Shown piece after piece: positions 15,289 to 26,886 of a stretch of 27,404 bases of DNA; position 1 is the first letter of the stretch; the number at the start of each line of letters is the position of its first letter. The position numbers were made by a program, and so were the translations under genes. The stretch covers positions 1 through 27,404 of IMG/VR virus record IMGVR_UViG_3300031673_000384; one strand, given 5' to 3'. Below the pieces are notes generated by a model. The model ran no database searches. It was not told where the DNA came from and saw only the letters and a program-made list of their open reading frames with translations. The DNA comes from a virus.

Positions 15289-15783
15289 TTAATCATCTGA
15301 TTTAGACAAAATCTTCTTTTTTCTAGTGCCTAGAAATGAGTCAATTTCCTTCTGTTTGAGCTCGTCAATTCCATTGACAGTAAACTTGGTGGTGTGGAGA
15401 TGGTCTCCCAGAAAGTAGATGAGTTTGACTCCATCCGGTCTCTGCTTGATATGATAATCTACATAAGCATCCAGTACATCCGGTACACTCTTGAGCATCA
15501 TTTTAGTGACAACATCATTCATCTGTTCAGGCGAGACAATATCTATTCCCCTATATCTACTCACGTTCATATGAGTAAGTGTATTGAAATCTTCTGTTAA
15601 ATATCTGTCTGCAACTGCTGCCGCAATCTCCATCATATAATTAGGAGAAGTATGACCACTTCTAGGTGCCTTATTCTTACAGGCCAAGATCTCCGTGATG
15701 AAATTTGGTGCAGGGATAACGAATTCTTCCGCTGATAATTCAGTTGGAAGGTCTGCCTCTTTTACTTTTACGAACTTTGTCAT
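15289..15783 (-). CDS. Unknown protein after the polymerase gene (164 aa)
   Basis: Not recognised. It is soluble, with an acidic N-terminus (EADLPTELSAEEF), a central helix-rich part (MMEIAAAVADRYL), a beta-type segment (KLIYFLGDHLHTTKFTV, about 119-135) and a basic tail (GTRKKKILSKSDD). No catalytic motif is evident. The start overlaps the polymerase stop by ATGA, and AAAGGAA upstream serves as SD, so it is translated with the polymerase and may be an accessory replication factor; this is inferred from position alone. The gene ends just before the SSB promoter. Confidence 0.72.
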   Translation of the reverse strand: MTKFVKVKEADLPTELSAEEFVIPAPNFITEILACKNKAPRSGHTSPNYMMEIAAAVADRYLTEDFNTLTHMNVSRYRGIDIVSPEQMNDVVTKMMLKSVPDVLDAYVDYHIKQRPDGVKLIYFLGDHLHTTKFTVNGIDELKQKEIDSFLGTRKKKILSKSDD

Positions 15784-18700
15784 ATTGTTTCCTTTATTCT
15801 ATCAATCTCATTGGCTGTTATACTAACGGGAATCTTAAACCCGGTTTGTAATGTTCCTTTAATGTAAACAAGACTGTTAGTTGCCCAACCTAGTGCCTTC
15901 TCTACTCCCCATATGGTACAAGAGATAGGGCCGAAGCCATCTGATAAGGTCACTTCAACCAGATCATATTCCTTGCCTGTCTTTTTTGATTTAATCTTTT
16001 TATGTTTGGAAGATTCGTATAACAATATCATTCCAACTTCTTTATCAACACCTTTCTGCAACAACTTCTCCGCAATACCTACTCCACCTAGAACTGGTAT
16101 GTTACCAAGTGTAAATGGTATTCCTATTTTACCTGTCTTCTTCAGACCTGGCCAGTAACCTGACAGTATAGATTCTATACCAGGATAGTTAAGTAGGGTT
16201 TTGGCAAAACACTTGTTAGTGTCTCTTTCCATCATGAACATATTGAGAGGTGAAGTATCTTTTATTTCATCAGTGAAATCCCTGCACTTACGCTTCTTTA
16301 CATAAGTGTCCATTAATTCTTGTCTAGCTTCTTTGTAAGGTCTTTCCGTGTCTAAGAAATCATCTATAGCTCTTCCTTTGATAGCTGCTGAGAACACACC
16401 TATGTTTACCTTACTATGATTAACTCTCTTGATATAGTCTTCTATATCTGTGAATGGTCCTTTGGATGCTAGTTCTGCAACAGCCTTTGCCCCACACTGC
16501 TTCAGTACTGATAAAGGTGCCACGATACTCTTATCTAGAATCTGGAATTTATTAGAAGGTTTCTTCAGTGATGGGGGCTTGACAACATCACTCAATAGAG
16601 TCATAAAGAATCTAAGCTTCTGCTCTGCTGCCGATGATGTCTTACCATCATTCGTTGTATTGAGTGTAGCTGTCCACCATTCTAATGGATAATGATGCTT
16701 GAACCACATAGTGATATATCCAAGCTCTGCGTAACAGCGAGAGTGAGACCTGTTAAAGGAATAACGTGCAAATGCAGCTATCTGTTGGCAGATGGCATCT
16801 ATCTGTTCTTCTGTCCACTTGCGCTTTGTGCAGTTGATCTTAATCTTGTCGAAGGCTTCTTTCATGATATCTAGCTTCTTCTTAGCTATTGCACCACGAA
16901 TACGGTCAGATTCTTCTAACGTATATCCTGCAATGTCAACCAGGAAGGCCATGACTGATTCCTGGTAAGCCAATACTCCTTCGGGTGCATAGGGTTGCAT
17001 ATCAGGATGAATCCATGATAGAGGCCTCTTACCGTTCCTAACGTCCATGTAATATTGGGTGGCAGATACGCCGTCTGCTTCGACAAGCTCATCATTCACA
17101 ATCTTTGCATCCATTGCACCAGGTCGAGCAAGGGCTGTAAAGAGAGATAGGTCTTCTCTCTTCATTGGTCTGAACTGTTGCACGTATCCTTTAATCAAAC
17201 CAGTATTGAACTGGAATGATGAATCAGTTTTCTTATCATAGAAATCTTGATATACCTTCTGATCTTCAGGGAGACGATATACCAATGCCACACCATTCTC
17301 ATCTTCATCTAAGAAGTCTTTACCAGTTCTCTCTCTTATGAGATCTATACACTCAGATATTGCTTGAATAGTAGTCACACCCAAGATATCAGCCTTGACT
17401 AATCCACGCTTCTCTACCATCCAGGCCTCGAACTGGGTCACTCTGACTTTGTTCTTATCTTTGTCTGTCATTATCATGGTTGGACAACGATTGTGTGCTA
17501 GATCTAAGGTTGCTATAACATAAGCAGAAGCATGTCTACCAAAACTACGTGGCAAACCTATCAGTCGATCTACCATTTGTTTTATATCAGGATAATATTC
17601 GAAGAAGTTGGATAACAGCTTATTGTCATCAACAATCCCTGTGAACTCTACACCTTCTTTATCGGTATATCCATATAAGAACTTCTTCTCACTCAATCCC
17701 TGTGGCGAATCAGGAATAGTCTTACAGACCGTATCGATCTCACGATCATTCCTATTTCTTCCTCTCAATGCAGAGGCAGCTAACTTGATTGCGTTCTTTA
17801 CCTTCATCCTTTGAACTGTACCAATCTGGGCGAACCCAAGACCATATTTCTTTGCGATATAGTCTATGATAGGTTGTCTGTTACCGAAATCGTTGTCAAT
17901 ATCTGGAAATGACATTGCATTAATACGTGCATGGGATAAAAATCGCTCAAACGGTAGATCTGCCTCTATTGGATCTATCTGAATTATTTTCAGATAATAC
18001 GATACTATGGAACCTCCAGCCGAACCACGACCGATGCCTCCTAATATACCTTTAGATCTTGCATAAGAACATAGATCTTCATATAGAAGAAAGTAAGGTA
18101 TGAAGTTCAGTTGACTGTTCTTCATAATCACATCGATCTCTTTCTTAAATCTTGCGACATATTCTGGAGAATCGTTCCATCTTCCGTGCTTTTTACATAA
18201 TTCCACTAGATAGTAGAATGTCTGCATGTCATAGTCTTCAATTTTATCTTGAATATGTTGAGGAATATCGATCTTAGGCATAATGAAATCTGATTCAAAA
18301 GTAATCTCCTTCGCCTCTGTGACAATCTCATGAGTTGTAGTGATCCATTCAGAGAACTTGCCTTCTGTCAACCAATCTCCAAGATGCCCTTTCAATCCGA
18401 GGTATATCTCTTTGGCCGTTCGTGCCTGATACGATTCTAAATAGCAGCGACCACTGTCATAGGAATCTTTGGCTAAACAATCGTGAACTAGTTTATCACC
18501 TGGCTTAATAAAATGGGCTCCTGTTGACGGAATTGCCAACAGCTGATATTTATCTACCATGTCAGCCATGAACAGACAGAAGGCCTTATTTAGGTCTCCA
18601 TCTTTAATTAGTGAATTTCTCTTTATCTTTTGAAACCCACCTTTCTTTGAGAACTTATACGTTATCGCGATTGGATTGAATTCAAATACAAGCTGATGAT

Positions 18701-19781
18701 CTAATATTTCTACTAGATTTTCAACTACTGCTGTGGCCTTCTCTAAGTCACCATCTTCTATATGCTGACCAATACCTCCATAAGCATCTGCTGTACCAAA
18801 TAGAATTCCATCCATATACTGACTAAGTTCTTCTCTAGTTAGTATAGGTGTATTGATACCATCAATCTCTCTAGCGCGATCATGGCCAAGAGATGCTAGT
18901 TTCATTAGATTCACATAGCCTTGTGTTTGTGTAGCCCAAGCATTGAGACTATAGATCTTGTCAAATCCTTCCAACTGCAGGAATAATCCCATACCTGGAA
19001 CTCTTACTGGATCTCCTTCTTTGCCTGTTGGCACCATGTCATAGAGGGACAATGCAACACCTGGATCACAGACAGAGAACCCTGGAACATCGTTTTCCTT
19101 ACACCAGTCAGACCAATCATCGATTGTAGCCACTGATTCGACCATACTGAATGAGGAATGAAGATGAAGTTGTGCAGGTTCTGGAAATACAAAGTCTGTC
19201 TCATATTGACCAATGACAATACCAACTGCCAGAGTGGCTTCTTCACCTAACAGAAGACCTATTTCCTTATCAACCGCTATGGTTGCATCTATATCAGATA
19301 AGGCATCGTGGGCTACAATTGGAATATTGTAGTGCTTTGCCAAGGTTGCGAGTTTAAGATTCTCAGTATGAAGTTGAGACTTGACCTCTTTAGCTCTAGC
19401 ATACGTATCATGAATATTGAGTTCGAACAAATCAAAGAAGTGAGACGAGACGTTGTGCTTGGTAAAGAAAGATGCGGTAAATTTCTTATCAAAGCCTACA
19501 TTATAACCTGCGATAATAAATCTTGTGTTAAACGATTCTAAGTATTTGACCAGCTTATCGAGCAACTCTGGGGCAGTCTGGAAGTTCTTCATCCTGCCTC
19601 TGGTAATACCGTGAACCCTAATGGCACCATCTTCTATGGCTTCCCAGTTTACTGGTTGACAGAATTCATTGAATGGTTTCTGCCTAACGCCATTGATGAC
19701 TGGAATACATGCTAATTGCACAACATCGTGTTTGTCTGCATATAGACCAGTTGTCTCAACGTCGATCCATAGAAAGTTCAT
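15780..19781 (-). CDS. dnaE: C-family DNA polymerase (DnaE-type) with fused N-terminal proofreading exonuclease
   Basis: 1333 residues from the ATG at 19779-19781, chosen because GGAG lies correctly upstream, the DnaQ-type fold starts at once (NFLWIDVETTG), and 20 extra upstream codons would be encoded across an intrinsic terminator. Residues 1-180: DEDDh exonuclease (D7, E9, D98, H158, D163). Residues 204-400: PHP domain starting LHLHSSFS, but the next metal motif reads SVCDPG, lacking the expected His. Residues about 540-1040: polymerase core with GRGSAGGS (585-592), catalytic PDIDND (D629, D631) and KADILG (D798), plus the FNRSHSRCYA fingers motif. Residues about 1247-1310: OB fold. It replicates phage DNA. 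Exonuclease before PHP differs from PolC, where it interrupts PHP. Confidence 0.95.
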   Translation of the reverse strand: MNFLWIDVETTGLYADKHDVVQLACIPVINGVRQKPFNEFCQPVNWEAIEDGAIRVHGITRGRMKNFQTAPELLDKLVKYLESFNTRFIIAGYNVGFDKKFTASFFTKHNVSSHFFDLFELNIHDTYARAKEVKSQLHTENLKLATLAKHYNIPIVAHDALSDIDATIAVDKEIGLLLGEEATLAVGIVIGQYETDFVFPEPAQLHLHSSFSMVESVATIDDWSDWCKENDVPGFSVCDPGVALSLYDMVPTGKEGDPVRVPGMGLFLQLEGFDKIYSLNAWATQTQGYVNLMKLASLGHDRAREIDGINTPILTREELSQYMDGILFGTADAYGGIGQHIEDGDLEKATAVVENLVEILDHQLVFEFNPIAITYKFSKKGGFQKIKRNSLIKDGDLNKAFCLFMADMVDKYQLLAIPSTGAHFIKPGDKLVHDCLAKDSYDSGRCYLESYQARTAKEIYLGLKGHLGDWLTEGKFSEWITTTHEIVTEAKEITFESDFIMPKIDIPQHIQDKIEDYDMQTFYYLVELCKKHGRWNDSPEYVARFKKEIDVIMKNSQLNFIPYFLLYEDLCSYARSKGILGGIGRGSAGGSIVSYYLKIIQIDPIEADLPFERFLSHARINAMSFPDIDNDFGNRQPIIDYIAKKYGLGFAQIGTVQRMKVKNAIKLAASALRGRNRNDREIDTVCKTIPDSPQGLSEKKFLYGYTDKEGVEFTGIVDDNKLLSNFFEYYPDIKQMVDRLIGLPRSFGRHASAYVIATLDLAHNRCPTMIMTDKDKNKVRVTQFEAWMVEKRGLVKADILGVTTIQAISECIDLIRERTGKDFLDEDENGVALVYRLPEDQKVYQDFYDKKTDSSFQFNTGLIKGYVQQFRPMKREDLSLFTALARPGAMDAKIVNDELVEADGVSATQYYMDVRNGKRPLSWIHPDMQPYAPEGVLAYQESVMAFLVDIAGYTLEESDRIRGAIAKKKLDIMKEAFDKIKINCTKRKWTEEQIDAICQQIAAFARYSFNRSHSRCYAELGYITMWFKHHYPLEWWTATLNTTNDGKTSSAAEQKLRFFMTLLSDVVKPPSLKKPSNKFQILDKSIVAPLSVLKQCGAKAVAELASKGPFTDIEDYIKRVNHSKVNIGVFSAAIKGRAIDDFLDTERPYKEARQELMDTYVKKRKCRDFTDEIKDTSPLNMFMMERDTNKCFAKTLLNYPGIESILSGYWPGLKKTGKIGIPFTLGNIPVLGGVGIAEKLLQKGVDKEVGMILLYESSKHKKIKSKKTGKEYDLVEVTLSDGFGPISCTIWGVEKALGWATNSLVYIKGTLQTGFKIPVSITANEIDRIKETI

Positions 19782-20188: not shown

Positions 20189-20680
20189 TTAGGTCTCCAA
20201 ATTCTCTTTTATAGTTTTCTCAAGATGATCTTCATACCAAAGTGGTTGTAGATTTGTATAATGGCTGGCTTTCTCAAACTCTTTAGTATTAGACAGATTA
20301 AAATCTGCCAATCTCCTAATGTGGTCAATGTGCCAACCAGTTGGTGAATGATTATTCCAATTCATACCTGGTTCAAATTTAGAAATCTTATTACATTCTA
20401 ATGAACAAGATTTAGAATTGTGACTCTTTGGCATAAAAGAACTACCACACATTACACATATCTTATCAGATAAAATACCTAACCCACTATTAATTCTATG
20501 TGTACGATTAGATTCAGCTTTTGCCTTCTTGGATCTTTTAGAAGAATGGAGTCTAGCTTTTGCTCTGTGATATTCTTCTTTAGAACTATCTTTGACTACA
20601 GATCTACATTTATTTGAACAATATAGAGCATTTGGGGCTTTAGATTCAAACCCCTTCTTACAAAGACTACACTGATGCAT
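20189..20680 (-). CDS. HNH endonuclease with zinc fingers, probable free-standing homing gene
   Basis: 163 residues from the ATG at 20678-20680 (a longer frame exists upstream but lacks an SD, and the protein fold starts at MHQCSLC). Two Cys-pair modules come first: CSLC...YCSNKC (4-26) and CVMC...SCSLEC. The C-terminal HNH domain reads GWHIDHI, then NLSNTKEF, TNLQPLWYEDHLEKT, the layout of HNH enzymes with the H-I-D-H-I and N-L-Q-P-L-W motifs. It would cut DNA at a specific site. It is clearly AT-richer than its neighbours (about one third G+C in the lines I counted versus 40%) and overlaps the previous gene by 14 bases, consistent with a mobile insertion between two small genes. Confidence 0.85.
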   Translation of the reverse strand: MHQCSLCKKGFESKAPNALYCSNKCRSVVKDSSKEEYHRAKARLHSSKRSKKAKAESNRTHRINSGLGILSDKICVMCGSSFMPKSHNSKSCSLECNKISKFEPGMNWNNHSPTGWHIDHIRRLADFNLSNTKEFEKASHYTNLQPLWYEDHLEKTIKENLET

Positions 20681-20963
20681 CTGGATTAACCGAACCGTCT
20701 TGGATTTCATCAATCTTTTCAAGCAGATGCTGAATTTTAGCTTCTTCATACTTCATTACAGAAGTGTAGGCACCTTTTAGGTCCTTAACAACTTGCATGG
20801 CTCCTGAGAGATCTTCATCATTTTCCATTTCATTCCTGAGCTCTCTAAGCTTCTGCTCAGACCTGACGATCAGAGCTCCTGCTTCGTCTTCTGCGATATC
20901 TGTGACATTATCTAGAAATGCCTGATTGAGAACCTTTTTTGCTTTACCGATGTCAACTGCCAT
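20667..20963 (-). CDS. Small helical unknown protein after ruvC (98 aa)
   Basis: Not recognised. Entirely helical and charged (SEQKLRELRNEMENDEDL; YEEAKIQHLLEKIDEIQD), likely a coiled-coil dimer. AAGGAG in the end of ruvC serves as its SD, three bases separate the genes, so it is co-translated with the resolvase. Its last 14 bases are shared with the HNH gene start. Confidence 0.7.
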   Translation of the reverse strand: MAVDIGKAKKVLNQAFLDNVTDIAEDEAGALIVRSEQKLRELRNEMENDEDLSGAMQVVKDLKGAYTSVMKYEEAKIQHLLEKIDEIQDGSVNPDASV

Positions 20964-20966
20964 GTC

Positions 20967-21602
20967 TTACTCCTTAGTGTATTTAAACATTACTTTTGGG
21001 GCTTTTTTAAACTCGAAATCATCTGGACATATTACGTCGCATGCGATATTCGATACGTTCAGGAATATTTTACAATAGAATATCCCTTGCGAGACGGCAT
21101 CCACAACGTCATAGCGGAACTTGATAGGCTTTCCAGTTTTTAAAGATAGGGAGTGATTGGGGAATCTGATATTGTATTTTTCCCACAGAGCTAGTTGCAT
21201 CATGAGTTTCTTTGCAGGATCTTTTCCCCATTTCTTCTTCTGTTCTTTAGTAGGGGTTGATCTTCCCGCCGTGAATTTCTTCCATAAGGATATATTCAGG
21301 ATTTCATATGGGAGATTTAATTCTCTTAGCTTGATATGGATGGCAGTTCTAAAGGCAGCATTCACATCACAGCCGTTGGCGAACTTGTTACTGAAGAAGT
21401 AGTCTTCTATGCACACGTCATCTATATTATGCTCGTGTACTAGTTTTTCTACATTATTCATCATCTCTATACAACGGTCGCCATTGTACTTGTGCTCACC
21501 AACTTCAATGAACCCGTATTTCACAATCGAAGCAGTGTCGTTCTTAATGGATAAAATGCAATATCCTGTAGATATTGCTGGATCCAATGCTAATATATTC
21601 AT
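20967..21602 (-). CDS. ruvC: RuvC-like Holliday junction resolvase
   Basis: 211 residues. The four acidic residues of the RNase H-fold resolvase are visible: Asp7 in ILALDPAISTG, Glu66 in VCIEDYFF, and Asp165/Asp168 in RYDVVDAVSQG. It would resolve branched DNA before packaging, as T4 endonuclease VII does by another fold, and completes the recombination set (SSB, RecA, Mre11/Rad50). The ATG at 21600-21602 is chosen over a GTG two codons upstream because AAGGAGG is five bases before it. That SD lies in a 7-base-pair hairpin at the end of a long structured leader, so translation is probably regulated. Insertions near residues 110-160 (basic, KKEQKKKWGKDPAKK-like) distinguish it from host RuvC, which is shorter. 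Confidence 0.88.
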   Translation of the reverse strand: MNILALDPAISTGYCILSIKNDTASIVKYGFIEVGEHKYNGDRCIEMMNNVEKLVHEHNIDDVCIEDYFFSNKFANGCDVNAAFRTAIHIKLRELNLPYEILNISLWKKFTAGRSTPTKEQKKKWGKDPAKKLMMQLALWEKYNIRFPNHSLSLKTGKPIKFRYDVVDAVSQGIFYCKIFLNVSNIACDVICPDDFEFKKAPKVMFKYTKE

Positions 21603-21603
21603 A

Positions 21604-21622
21604 CTCACCTCCTTAAGGTGAG
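21604..21622 (-). promoter_or_regulatory. SD-sequestering hairpin before ruvC
   Basis: Minus strand CTCACCT-TAAGG-AGGTGAG: a perfect 7-base-pair stem with a 5-base loop. The AAGGAGG ribosome binding site of ruvC spans the loop and the 3' arm. The 5' arm shares four bases (21619-21622) with the closing helix of the leader RNA, so both cannot form at once. Confidence 0.7.
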
Positions 21623-21770
21623 AGGCCTACCGGTTACCCCAACCCGGCTCCCTACTTCCGCGGACTCTTTTTCATCCAACCTATTGGAACTAGGCTAACT
21701 TGCCTGTGAGTTTAAACTGCGCATATAGCCCAGTCATCCAACCGCACACTCATCAATCCCTGACCTCTCA
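21619..21770 (-). ncRNA. Putative structured leader RNA / riboswitch-like element upstream of ruvC
   Basis: About 152 nt, roughly 52% G+C by hand count against about 40% around it, non-coding. The ends pair as a 9-base-pair closing helix (21762-21770 with 21619-21627, one G-U). Internal helices visible on the minus strand: ACUG-G-GC / GC-G-CAGU with a UAUAU loop; AGGC-AAGUUA-GCCU; UCCAA-UAGG-UUGGA; and a CCGG/CCGG hairpin near the 3' end; UGAGU/ACUCA could enclose the first. I do not recognise an established class (no match to cobalamin, lysine, SAM, glutamine or RNase P core motifs that I know). A 13-codon frame (21712-21753) is a weaker, leader-peptide alternative. The predicted transcript start coincides with its 5' end. 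Confidence 0.6.
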
Positions 21771-21776
21771 AAAGAG

Positions 21777-21805
21777 ATTATACCGGATCGACGTCATCTT
21801 GTAGA
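21777..21805 (-). promoter_or_regulatory. Promoter for the leader RNA and ruvC unit
   Basis: Minus strand TCTACA (21800-21805), 17 bases, TATAAT (21777-21782). The expected start, 6-7 bases beyond, is 21770-21771, exactly where the leader's closing helix begins. Confidence 0.6.
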
Positions 21806-21812
21806 GTATGTG

Positions 21813-22082
21813 CTAAAGTTTGAGACTCCATTGTCCATCTTTAGAAATATTTAGTTTATTCTTATTCTTAGATGCTACCTTGGTAGCAGAGGCTTTCATC
21901 TTGGGATCAGCTATCTGCTCAGTCACTTTATTAGCATCTTTCTTAGATGCCTGACCAGGAACAGGTGGCCTAGGTTTATCTACACCGATATCAACCTTCG
22001 GGGCTTTTGGTGCCTTAGGGGACATTCTCATGTTCTTTACAGAACTTGATAGTGCTTTTATCTTTTTTATTAGTTCTTCCAT
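21813..22082 (-). CDS. Small basic Pro/Lys-rich unknown protein (89 aa)
   Basis: Starts at the ATG 22080-22082 (TAATG overlap with the upstream gene; the longer frame has no SD and overlaps that gene deeply). A short N-terminal helix (EELIKKIKALSSSVKN) leads into a basic, Pro-rich, probably disordered stretch (KAPKAPK, RPPVPGQASKK) and ends in SKDGQWSLKL. The NGQW/DGQW-x-L motif also appears near the N-terminus of the upstream neighbour. Function unknown; composition suggests nucleic-acid contact or a flexible linker. It is the last gene before the ruvC promoter. Confidence 0.62.
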   Translation of the reverse strand: MEELIKKIKALSSSVKNMRMSPKAPKAPKVDIGVDKPRPPVPGQASKKDANKVTEQIADPKMKASATKVASKNKNKLNISKDGQWSLKL

Positions 22083-22318
22083 TATTTCAAGTTCTTTACA
22101 TGTTCTTGATGGGCTGGAGATAGTTTGTCCATCATGGTCCATTTCTTACCATCTTGGATTGCAGTCGTGGCTTGCTTACGATTCATTCTCGAGGCACCAC
22201 CGTCAAATACATGAACATAGCCACCATCTGGATGCTTGGTGATATGACCCTCTGAATCGCTACCTTTCTCAAGAAGCTCCCATTGTCCATTCTTATGGGT
22301 TTTAAATAGTTCTTCCAT
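22082..22318 (-). CDS. Small unknown protein (78 aa)
   Basis: Not recognised. A short beta-type start (THKNGQWELLEKGSDSEG), then HPDGGYVHVFDGGASRMNRKQA and a helical end (SPAHQEHVKNLK). Its beginning MEELFK and the NGQWEL motif echo the next gene (MEELIK, DGQWSL), so the pair may be related fragments. It overlaps the Rad50-like gene by TAATG and has GGAG upstream, so it is translated after it in the same operon. Confidence 0.68.
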   Translation of the reverse strand: MEELFKTHKNGQWELLEKGSDSEGHITKHPDGGYVHVFDGGASRMNRKQATTAIQDGKKWTMMDKLSPAHQEHVKNLK

Positions 22319-24075
22319 TAAGCTATCTCCGAGATACCGTTCTTCTTCACTACCTTAATTATATCAGAAAACATACTCTTAGCTTCTGAAGCATGATCAA
22401 TTACTATAATATTACGGTCTACTGCCAATTTCTCTAATAATTCTACTACCTTTTCCCTATTTGTGGCATCTAAACCCTCAAAAGGCTCATCCATTATGAT
22501 AGGATTCAAGCGTGTACCAAACATATTCTGTAGGACATCGACAACCGCGAAGTCCATTGCCAGAGATAGACACTTGTGCTCACCTCCAGATAAGCTGCCT
22601 ATGGACATATTCTCACCGTTTATCATAAGATTCTGGGAGAATTTTGCCTTTATTTCCTTATCCTTATTGACCTTACTTGTTGTAATCTGATATAGGGCTC
22701 TGGGCCATATCAGGTTTATATAGGTTTCCATCTTCTCATTGAAGATATCTACTATTGAATCCATGACATAGGCAGGAGCACCTGTGGGTGAGAACATCTG
22801 AGATACCTCCCTGTAGACATCTACTTCAGCCTTCTTAGCTCCATGTAGTCTCTTGAAATGATCCATTTTTGACTTACAATCTTTGATGCTAGTTTTTATG
22901 GTCGTGTTTTTATCCAGTGCGAGTCTCAAATGATTCAAACTAGTCTTATCTGATTCATACTGTATTTTAAGTCCACTTATTTGCTCATTTGCGGTACTAT
23001 AAGTACTAAATTCAGCTTCTCTCTTAGTATCTATGTCTAATCTGATCTTTTTCAACTGATTTCTTTGAGGCTCATCATCAGGAATAAGGGCCAGTTGAGA
23101 TCTTACATCGAGTATATTGGCATTCACCTCAGCAACCTTATCATCATGCTGCTCTATCATTGTTTGCATTGTATAGGCACCAGATGATCCCATGCCAAAA
23201 CTCTTAGTGCAATGTGGACATTCAACTTCATTAGGGAATGAGTGGACATGACTGCTTAGTCTGGTAAACTCTTGCTCTAATCTAGATTCTTGAGTTTGTA
23301 GGGTAGATTTCTTATTAGCACTAACATCAAGAAGTCGTTCTTTTTCATACAACTTGTGCTGTATGTCTGTATATTTAGACATATCTGGTGCCTTAATTTT
23401 CTGGAGCTCCGTAATTTGATCCAGGGTTGGCTGTAATGATATCTTTGATATCTTGCCTTGCACAGAATCCTCGTCCACCAGATGGGCCGTATCGGCCTCT
23501 ACCTTTGCTTTTAGAGAAATGAATTCACGCTCTATCGTACCCATCTCTTCTAACAAAGCCTTGATGGATGTCTCTGCCGACTTCCTGGCATCTGTAAACA
23601 TATCTAAGTTCATGAGTTGTAAGAAGAAATCCTTGATCTGTGAGTCATTCTGGCTAATCAGTTTCTGTGACTCTACTTGGGAAGAGTACATTGATATGAG
23701 GAATTGTGAGTAGGACATTAGATGAGATTCTAACTCAACCTGGGTCATCTCAACTTCATCTCCATTCTTAAAGACCTTGAATCCTTTGGGACGACTTCTC
23801 TCAATGATCCATTCAACTCCCTTGTTCTCGACACAGATCTTGACCTTGCCCTTTTTAGCACCCTTTCTTAAAATATCACTTGCTGTTATTTTTCGGGGGA
23901 TTTTATTAAATAGGCCAAACGATAGTGCATTAAGGAGTGATGACTTACCTGCGCCATTTGCGCAATCGTCATCCATGTTCCAACCATCTATTAAAGTTAA
24001 ACCCGCCTCTTTTAGATTGAGACGGGCTTTTCCGATACTTAATATGTCTTCTACTTCAAACCACTTAACTTGCAC
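22318..24075 (-). CDS. Rad50/SbcC/T4 gp46-like recombination ATPase
   Basis: 585 residues from a GTG start (24073-24075), chosen because GGAG lies five bases upstream and the ABC-type N-terminus begins there (VKWFEVEDILSIG); the longer frame overlaps the FmdB-like gene deeply. Walker A NGAGKSS (40-46), a CPHC zinc hook (C286, C289) in the middle of two coiled-coil arms, ABC signature SLSGGE (494-499), Walker B NPIIMDEP with the D-loop GLD, and IDHAS switch His complete the Rad50 pattern. It works with the Mre11-like nuclease at 11554-12546 to process DNA ends. The coiled coils are short, as in phage gp46 proteins. Family assignment is firm. Confidence 0.93.
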   Translation of the reverse strand: MQVKWFEVEDILSIGKARLNLKEAGLTLIDGWNMDDDCANGAGKSSLLNALSFGLFNKIPRKITASDILRKGAKKGKVKICVENKGVEWIIERSRPKGFKVFKNGDEVEMTQVELESHLMSYSQFLISMYSSQVESQKLISQNDSQIKDFFLQLMNLDMFTDARKSAETSIKALLEEMGTIEREFISLKAKVEADTAHLVDEDSVQGKISKISLQPTLDQITELQKIKAPDMSKYTDIQHKLYEKERLLDVSANKKSTLQTQESRLEQEFTRLSSHVHSFPNEVECPHCTKSFGMGSSGAYTMQTMIEQHDDKVAEVNANILDVRSQLALIPDDEPQRNQLKKIRLDIDTKREAEFSTYSTANEQISGLKIQYESDKTSLNHLRLALDKNTTIKTSIKDCKSKMDHFKRLHGAKKAEVDVYREVSQMFSPTGAPAYVMDSIVDIFNEKMETYINLIWPRALYQITTSKVNKDKEIKAKFSQNLMINGENMSIGSLSGGEHKCLSLAMDFAVVDVLQNMFGTRLNPIIMDEPFEGLDATNREKVVELLEKLAVDRNIIVIDHASEAKSMFSDIIKVVKKNGISEIA

Positions 24076-25140: not shown

Positions 25141-26886
25141 TTACTCCTGAGCTGAGGCCATCATCTGGTCAAAGGCTTGCTTGCCTAATGCCATCTGTGT
25201 CTCCATTTCTGGGTTGGAAGGTGTCACCACGATGCCTCCTAAGGTAATCAATAATGCCGCTACAGATAATGCATTACCAATACTAACCCTAACAACCTTG
25301 CTTGGCTCAATTATACCTGCCTCGAAAGGATTCACGAAGCAGTGTCCGCTGGCATCAAACACCAGAGCTGGTAATTCAGTACTAACTCCATATTCATCAG
25401 ATAGCTTACATAGAATTTGCTGCTCATCTTCACCGCAATTCTCTAGTAGGCGTAAAAAGGGTGCCCTTAATGCCTTTGCCAGCAGAAGCCAAGATGATTT
25501 TGTTTCATATGCAACTGCCCCATTGGGTGAAACTTCTCCAATTGGACTGCCTCGTTCTAACATAGCTGCCATGATCAGATGAGTACTGCATCCACCAGTT
25601 ACTATGCCTTCTGCAATTGCAGACCTGACAGCCTCTACAGCATCCTCAGTCCTATCTTTCTTCTCTCTAATCTCAAGATCCGATGAACCACCAACTAAGA
25701 TACTAGCAATACCACCAGATAATCTGGCAATGTGGGCCTTTAGATGAGACTTGTCATAATCACTGAATGCGTCAGATAAGATTGATCTCAACTCTGTGAC
25801 CCTGGCCTGTATATCTGATGGTGCAGGGTCTGATGTGAGGAAGGTTTCATAGGTATTGATGATGACTTCTGTGAACTCGCCGATACCAAAATCTGAGATC
25901 TGATCGATTGTCCCTGGATCATATACTTCTGCTCCAGTATAGGCAGCCAAGTCATCTAACATGATAGAAGCACCGTTTGGAAGTCCTGATCTAGGAGTTT
26001 TAACAGGCACGATCATTAGACCTCCTTTTGAAGTCTTTGCAAAAGCATCCAGTACAGAATCGGCAAAATCATGCGCTACAACAATGATTGGCTTGCCATC
26101 TGACTGAACACCACCCTCATCTGTGACGACATCTTGAATTCTTGCAGGAACTGATAGATCGTTTAGTCTTCCGTTATATAGGAATACGTGGCCGTTGTCC
26201 ATTCTTGTTTTCTGACCTGCCTTGTCGTTGATAAAGACTGGACCAATTTGACCTAGATCCTTTAGGCCACTAGTTAGTACAAAGCTCTTGACAGTATCTA
26301 TCTTAGTTTCCCTACCTTGACCCTCGAGAATCTGAATGTGTCCATCATCTCCCGCTTCCATGATGGCGGAAACTACAACGTTAGCAATCTCTTTATCTCC
26401 ATTACAGGAGATAGTTGCCACATCTAATAGAAGCTCTTCTGTGTTGGCTTCCATAGAAACATCTTTTAAGAAAGGAACGATGACTGTATTGTACGCATCG
26501 TGTAATTCATTGACCAGTCTCTGTGGATTGTATTTTGGGTTGTCTCTTAGAAACTGCTGCCCCATATCAACAAGGGCGTTGGCCAATACAATTGCTGTTG
26601 TAGTTCCATCACCAGCTTCTGCTGCAGTATTGATGCAAATCTCTTTGGCAGCATCTACTACGATATTGTGTGCAGCATTGCCCATACCTAAAGACTTAGC
26701 AACCGTCACACCATCTTTGGTAACTAGTGGTGCAAGTCCTTCTCGTTCTATTAGAACTGGTCGACCACCTGGACCCAAGGTTGCACCTACGATTGTGGCC
26801 ATGGAGTTAAGTGTCTCAGACACTGTACTGATCAGCTTGTCCTTGTCAGACATGATCTCTTTTGCCCGTGACTTTTCGTATATCAT
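25141..26886 (-). CDS. groEL: GroEL-type chaperonin (Cpn60)
   Basis: 581 residues against about 548 for bacterial GroEL. ATP-binding motifs are intact: TLGPGGRPVLIE (36-46), TKDGVTVAK (56-64), and EAGDGTTTAIVLA (90-102, Asp93). The IREKKDRTEDAVEAVRSA segment keeps the catalytic Asp corresponding to E. coli D398. There is no Gly-Met tail; it ends SAQE. Phage chaperonins of this kind exist in Pseudomonas phages such as EL and may fold phage capsid or other proteins; no GroES-like gene is visible in this window, so it may act alone or use the host co-chaperonin. The ATG at 26884-26886 overlaps the methyltransferase stop by ATGA, with GGAG upstream. The longer N-terminus aligns with the start of host GroEL. 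Confidence 0.95.
   Translation of the reverse strand: MIYEKSRAKEIMSDKDKLISTVSETLNSMATIVGATLGPGGRPVLIEREGLAPLVTKDGVTVAKSLGMGNAAHNIVVDAAKEICINTAAEAGDGTTTAIVLANALVDMGQQFLRDNPKYNPQRLVNELHDAYNTVIVPFLKDVSMEANTEELLLDVATISCNGDKEIANVVVSAIMEAGDDGHIQILEGQGRETKIDTVKSFVLTSGLKDLGQIGPVFINDKAGQKTRMDNGHVFLYNGRLNDLSVPARIQDVVTDEGGVQSDGKPIIVVAHDFADSVLDAFAKTSKGGLMIVPVKTPRSGLPNGASIMLDDLAAYTGAEVYDPGTIDQISDFGIGEFTEVIINTYETFLTSDPAPSDIQARVTELRSILSDAFSDYDKSHLKAHIARLSGGIASILVGGSSDLEIREKKDRTEDAVEAVRSAIAEGIVTGGCSTHLIMAAMLERGSPIGEVSPNGAVAYETKSSWLLLAKALRAPFLRLLENCGEDEQQILCKLSDEYGVSTELPALVFDASGHCFVNPFEAGIIEPSKVVRVSIGNALSVAALLITLGGIVVTPSNPEMETQMALGKQAFDQMMASAQE

Follow-up and report, generated by a model that had tools for sequence, protein, structure and literature searches.

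Translational control by leader RNAs in phages

Phages must delay the enzymes that cut branched DNA. In T4, the Holliday-junction resolvase is the gene 49 product, endonuclease VII, which belongs to a family unrelated to RuvC. In T4, start-site hairpins with an internal promoter are reported for e, soc, 49 and I-TevI (PMC3014915; PMC2988022). The locus described here resembles gene 49 in that the controlled gene is a phage Holliday-junction resolvase, and resembles the T4 type generally in that the Shine-Dalgarno sequence or start codon is predicted to be occluded in read-through RNA, with a promoter of the gene's own nearby. The resolvase is of the RuvC family here and is endonuclease VII in T4; the likeness is one of working principle. 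The promoters also differ, a late promoter being used in T4 and a sigma-70-like GTATAAT being found in the phage group studied here. The operators of T4 genes 43 and 32 likewise place a leader RNA structure before a phage DNA-transaction protein, but unlike our leader they are mapped protein-binding sites. Translational riboswitches share with the locus a closed domain near the transcription start (+1) and a closing helix (P1) that overlaps a stem hiding the Shine-Dalgarno sequence; unlike them, the domain described below has neither an Rfam family match nor conservation.

The gap upstream of ruvC

The locus lies in a stretch of viral DNA of 27,404 nt (IMG/VR record IMGVR_UViG_3300031673_000384), referred to here as the window. 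The same phage DNA encodes a cpn60/GroEL-family chaperonin (25141–26886) and a DnaE-type DNA polymerase III alpha with an N-terminal exonuclease domain fused to it (15780–19781). A preliminary description of the window had singled out its longest non-coding gap, and the 210 nt between 21603 and 21812 do hold that place, the second-longest intergenic gap measuring 112 nt. All features of the locus are on the minus strand, with the ruvC start codon at 21602:

20967–21602, minus strand: RuvC-family Holliday-junction resolvase, 211 aa, ATG start
21604–21622, minus strand: 8-bp hairpin CUCACCUUAAGGAGGUGAG covering the ruvC Shine-Dalgarno sequence
21619–21627, minus strand: P1 3′ strand GGCCUCUCA, of which 21619–21622 are common to the preceding hairpin
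21619–21770, minus strand: closed domain of 152 nt, whose lowest-energy fold has P1 and three internal stem-loops; none of the relatives found has it
21630–21647, minus strand: internal hairpin CCGGGUUGGGGUAACCGG
21712–21753, minus strand: possible upstream ORF of 13 codons (MSVRLDDWAICAV) with a weak Shine-Dalgarno sequence, read from the sequence; may be chance
21715–21735, minus strand: internal hairpin GACUGGGCUAUAUGCGCAGUU
21762–21770, minus strand: P1 5′ strand UGAGAGGUC
21765–21776, minus strand: inverted repeat CTCTTTTGAGAG spanning the predicted start point; only read-through RNA would contain its 5′ half
21777–21783, minus strand: −10 element GTATAAT, a motif also seen ahead of genes elsewhere in the window and in relatives
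21800–21805, minus strand: −35-like hexamer TCTACA
21813–22142, minus strand: upstream gene, protein C-terminus DGQWSLKL; several relatives have the same neighbour

The promoter consists of TCTACA (21805–21800), a 17-nt spacer and TATAAT (21782–21777), with 10 of 12 matches. Placed by the 6-nt spacing observed in relatives, +1 falls at 21770, which is the first base of P1; both the TATAAT promoter and the coincidence of the predicted transcript start with the first base of a 9-bp helix had been proposed from the sequence alone, and both are borne out. GTATAAT recurs before genes in intergenic gaps of the window (21783, 15285, 6157, 4231 and 220). Its presence at gene starts here and in relatives supports the earlier proposal that ruvC is preceded by a leader with a promoter of its own, and further evidence is provided by relatives in which the same promoter stands directly at the ruvC start codon. 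We consider a promoter and leader at this position very likely.

The nine pairs of P1, one of them U.G, join UGAGAGGUC (21770–21762) to GGCCUCUCA (21627–21619), so that the closed domain of about 150 nt and the several internal hairpins of the preliminary description are recovered as 152 nt and three stem-loops. Its G+C content of 0.52 compares with 0.39–0.40 in the flanks and 0.41 in the window, and is matched or exceeded by merely 0.4% of 152-nt windows; the earlier figures of about 52% against about 40% hold for 21619–21770, while the range for which they were given (21619–21805) has 0.50. The advantage of the whole domain's fold over dinucleotide shuffles is moderate, at z −3.07 (0/200) and, in a separate run, z −3.28 (7/1500), a first estimate of −3.77 having failed to recur with more shuffles and being left unused. 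The interior without P1 is not clearly better than shuffles (z −1.86, 31/500), and the calculated probability of P1 in the RNA born at the promoter is about 0.4–0.6. Some 12 of 682 tiled segments of the window, mostly coding, score a z of about −3.8 or lower; taken by itself, fold energy is therefore no proof, and its support for a structured RNA is weak.

These values bear on the possibility that the gap is largely a non-functional spacer acquired by recombination, folding as its composition predicts, with selection acting only on the promoter and the Shine-Dalgarno hairpin. The interior fold, the several coding segments that fold equally well or better, the lack of conservation and the position of the switch calculations within shuffled controls (see below) all fit such a spacer. 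Against it stand the length of the gap, the longest in the window although phage genomes are compact, together with the whole-domain fold, the unusual G+C content and a 9-bp helix that begins exactly at +1. On balance, we regard a spacer as unlikely.

Relatives of the ruvC locus

Viral contigs and a single genome contig supplied the RuvC relatives. Homologues of the leader were sought upstream of their ruvC genes, as had been envisaged; about 27 non-redundant loci could be compared, and none carries the domain. Most of these relatives share 45–60% RuvC identity with the window, and a distant locus (L024) shares 33%. A gap of similar size is missing from all of them: at most a few dozen bases lie between ruvC and the end of the upstream gene.

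In ten relatives, GTATAAT or GTATAAC lies 6–7 nt before the ruvC start codon, and in two more 17–18 nt before it; the start or spacing was set by eye for L059, L062 and L097. Of 69 GTATAAT occurrences at the loci examined, 17 are followed by ATG at a distance of exactly 6 nt, any other distance being represented 0–5 times. As 6–7 nt is the usual distance from −10 to +1, the ruvC mRNAs of these relatives are predicted to be leaderless, and most motif-bearing relatives would differ from T4 in this respect. The 6-nt layout from promoter to ATG occurs upstream of ruvC in L004, L046/L049, L063, L090, L095, L097, L099 and L101. TATAAT, mostly as the extended −10 TGATATAAT, also precedes the ATG of another gene by 6–7 nt in L048, L063, L067, L090, L095 and L099; in several cases this is the gene just upstream of ruvC, which is likewise predicted to be leaderless. 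L118 and L121 show other genes with TATAAT, 6 nt and ATG in this arrangement. Leaderless mRNAs are thus predicted, from sequence, for ruvC and several other genes of the phage group.

Hairpins at the start codon are a second feature of these loci. Opening the start region is calculated to cost 6–11 kcal/mol in the read-through RNA of 9 of 13 relatives and 0–1.7 kcal/mol in the promoter-born RNA, and for seven of the nine no more than 3 of 100 shuffles give a higher read-through cost. Because the 5′ arm of the relatives' hairpin overlaps the −10 region, their promoter-born RNA lacks that arm. In 7 of the 13 relatives, a hairpin spanning promoter and start codon should block translation of read-through RNA and leave the promoter-born RNA free. 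Promoters inside the hairpin are found in relatives such as L004/L058, L005/L059, L062 and L097, and the T4-type layout is matched closely by the relatives of the window.

L062 (60% RuvC identity) is the closest relative found among those whose upstream region is complete. Its start region, GTATAACCTCTCAATAGGAGGTTTTATG, resembles GTATAA plus CCTCTCACCTTAAGGAGGTGAGTATG of the window, where the domain lies in between. On the simplest view of this resemblance, the domain is an addition that came to lie between promoter and start hairpin, both of them conserved, its loss in the other lineages being the alternative. The window also contains a T4-like layout at another gene (4231–4190, GTATAATGTCATAGGAGGAAACCTATG), where a hairpin CATAGG/CCTATG covers the start codon in read-through RNA and the promoter-born RNA is without most of the 5′ arm; opening this start is calculated at 10.5 kcal/mol in read-through RNA and 4.7 kcal/mol in promoter-born RNA.

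Searches for the domain and for known RNA classes

Rfam covariance models gave no match to the domain at the gathering score or at E values up to 10, in agreement with the earlier remark that no known class was recognised, and ARAGORN found no tRNA or tmRNA. Searches with blastn in phages and plasmids returned just short chance matches. DNA patterns recovered 0, 18 and 13 stretches from viral contigs, none of which, when read or model-scored, was alike beyond the pattern. A covariance model built from the single sequence matched only itself among the related contigs and 296 genomes of one phylum. Such a model is insensitive, many of the related records are fragments and the collections may omit close kin; the domain thus appears specific to the lineage of the window, though its absence elsewhere is not proven. 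It is known from one sequence only.

Several other candidates were discarded. A 30-nt match of 83% in L010 is attributed to chance, as it lies on the other strand of ruvC coding sequence and its covariance model score is nil. Derivation of the leader from a degenerate duplication of the ruvC start was no better supported than in shuffles. Resemblances to tracrRNA, omega RNA and ribozymes were considered and set aside for want of any Rfam match.

A stand-alone phage small RNA, or a DNA element inserted before ruvC by chance with P1 as its terminal helix or terminal inverted repeat, would account for a G+C content in the top 0.4% of the window, a lineage-specific occurrence between conserved neighbours and a 5′ end at the terminal helix. 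The domain is, however, a single copy in the window, was not found in other phages, plasmids or the sampled genomes, shows no clear target-site duplication and has bases in P1 that also belong to the ruvC start hairpin. Nor does an intrinsic terminator separate the domain from ruvC, the sole terminator-like site in 20500–23000 being at 21578–21558, inside ruvC. An independent small RNA or insertion seems rather unlikely to us. The site inside ruvC is a perfect 9-bp hairpin, GCAATATCTACAGGATATTGC, followed by ATTTTAT within the first ruvC codons (21558–21578).

Access to the Shine-Dalgarno sequence

The ruvC Shine-Dalgarno sequence AAGGAGG (21614–21608) lies within the 8-bp hairpin at 21622–21604, an important part of the locus that the range of the preliminary description leaves out. 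This hairpin and P1 have 4 nt in common, and the hairpin is cut to 5 bp once P1 forms. The −10 element sits about 155 nt upstream, so that, unlike in T4, the hairpin is wholly downstream of the promoter with a domain of about 150 nt between the two, and the promoter-born RNA keeps both arms.

Opening the Shine-Dalgarno sequence is calculated to cost 3.6 kcal/mol in promoter-born RNA, 6.2–7.4 kcal/mol in read-through RNA and 8.9 kcal/mol without the domain. For the ruvC start region in read-through RNA the cost is 8.8 kcal/mol, against a mean of 4.75 kcal/mol for 21 other genes, of which one is higher. In promoter-born RNA it amounts to 3.6–4.1 kcal/mol, which is intermediate when set beside the 0–1.7 kcal/mol of the relatives. 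The higher cost in read-through RNA arises, in the calculation, from pairing of upstream sequence with the P1 5′ strand. Shuffling the upstream sequence gives about the same rise in cost (123 of 400 at or above the observed value) and 51 of 400 shuffled domains keep the Shine-Dalgarno sequence equally open, so the switch specific to the window is within chance. Specific pairing between upstream sequence and leader was accordingly rejected as the basis of a switch.

When the first 9 or 60 nt of the leader are blocked, Shine-Dalgarno opening comes to 7.3 kcal/mol. This value and the start of the possible ORF just after the AGAGGUCAGGG stretch at the P1 base would suit translation-coupled attenuation, in which translation of the ORF (21753–21712) would disrupt P1 and strengthen the hairpin, and ribosome supply would set the RuvC level. 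An ORF of 13 codons is expected by chance, though, its ribosome site is weak and there is no conservation by which to test coding, and we hold attenuation to be highly improbable.

A sensing leader, the ligand- or protein-binding reading raised in the preliminary description, would use the same 4-nt overlap, in that a metabolite, or RuvC itself if the branched RNA mimics its DNA substrate, would bind and so alter P1 and with it access to the Shine-Dalgarno sequence. A closed multi-branched domain that starts at +1, an overlap between P1 and the Shine-Dalgarno hairpin as in translational riboswitches, and a high G+C content are what such a leader would be expected to show. Riboswitch aptamers are usually conserved widely, whereas this domain is missing in every relative found, lacks an Rfam match even at E values up to 10 and has an interior fold not clearly above shuffles; a sensing leader is accordingly improbable. 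The comparison with relatives speaks rather for translational control of ruvC through a hairpin at its start site, in the manner of T4 late genes. The evolutionary form of the idea, that a lineage-specific domain inserted between a conserved leaderless promoter and ruvC senses RuvC, as a junction mimic, or another signal and toggles the hairpin, is quite improbable. If true, a domain sensing RuvC or another signal would be a regulatory leader of a new class, with a recombination nuclease under its control.

A possible variation on a phage strategy

The explanation that we tentatively favour, as possible but short of probable, is that the gap is a ruvC leader that tunes translation through the Shine-Dalgarno hairpin, a known phage strategy in a form peculiar to this lineage. 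A 5′ leader of 168 nt would be transcribed from the gene's own GTATAAT promoter and would end in the hairpin over the ruvC Shine-Dalgarno sequence. In the relatives, the hairpin overlaps the promoter, which should leave promoter-born RNA open and read-through RNA closed, and the resolvase would be delayed until transcription begins at its own promoter, in the manner of T4 genes 49, e and soc. In the lineage of the window, about 150 nt of structured sequence lie between promoter and hairpin. By calculation, P1 would take four bases of the hairpin's 5′ arm and leave the Shine-Dalgarno sequence partly open in promoter-born RNA; in the assumed read-through RNA, upstream sequence would capture the P1 5′ strand and the hairpin would close fully. 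We infer that the domain may act as a modulator, and hypothesize from the folding calculations a leader with two states, partly on when transcribed from its own promoter and off when part of read-through RNA.

Sequence comparison supports the predicted promoter, the putative leader, the hairpin and the layout of the relatives. The setting is the firmer result: in this phage group, ruvC often appears to have a promoter at its start codon and start-blocking hairpins, and the lineage of the window would have added a long leader to these. RuvC phages unrelated to T4 appear to share its strategy, often with a predicted leaderless mRNA, which suggests that they arrived at it independently. The lineage of the window would show how a leaderless gene gains a long structured leader.
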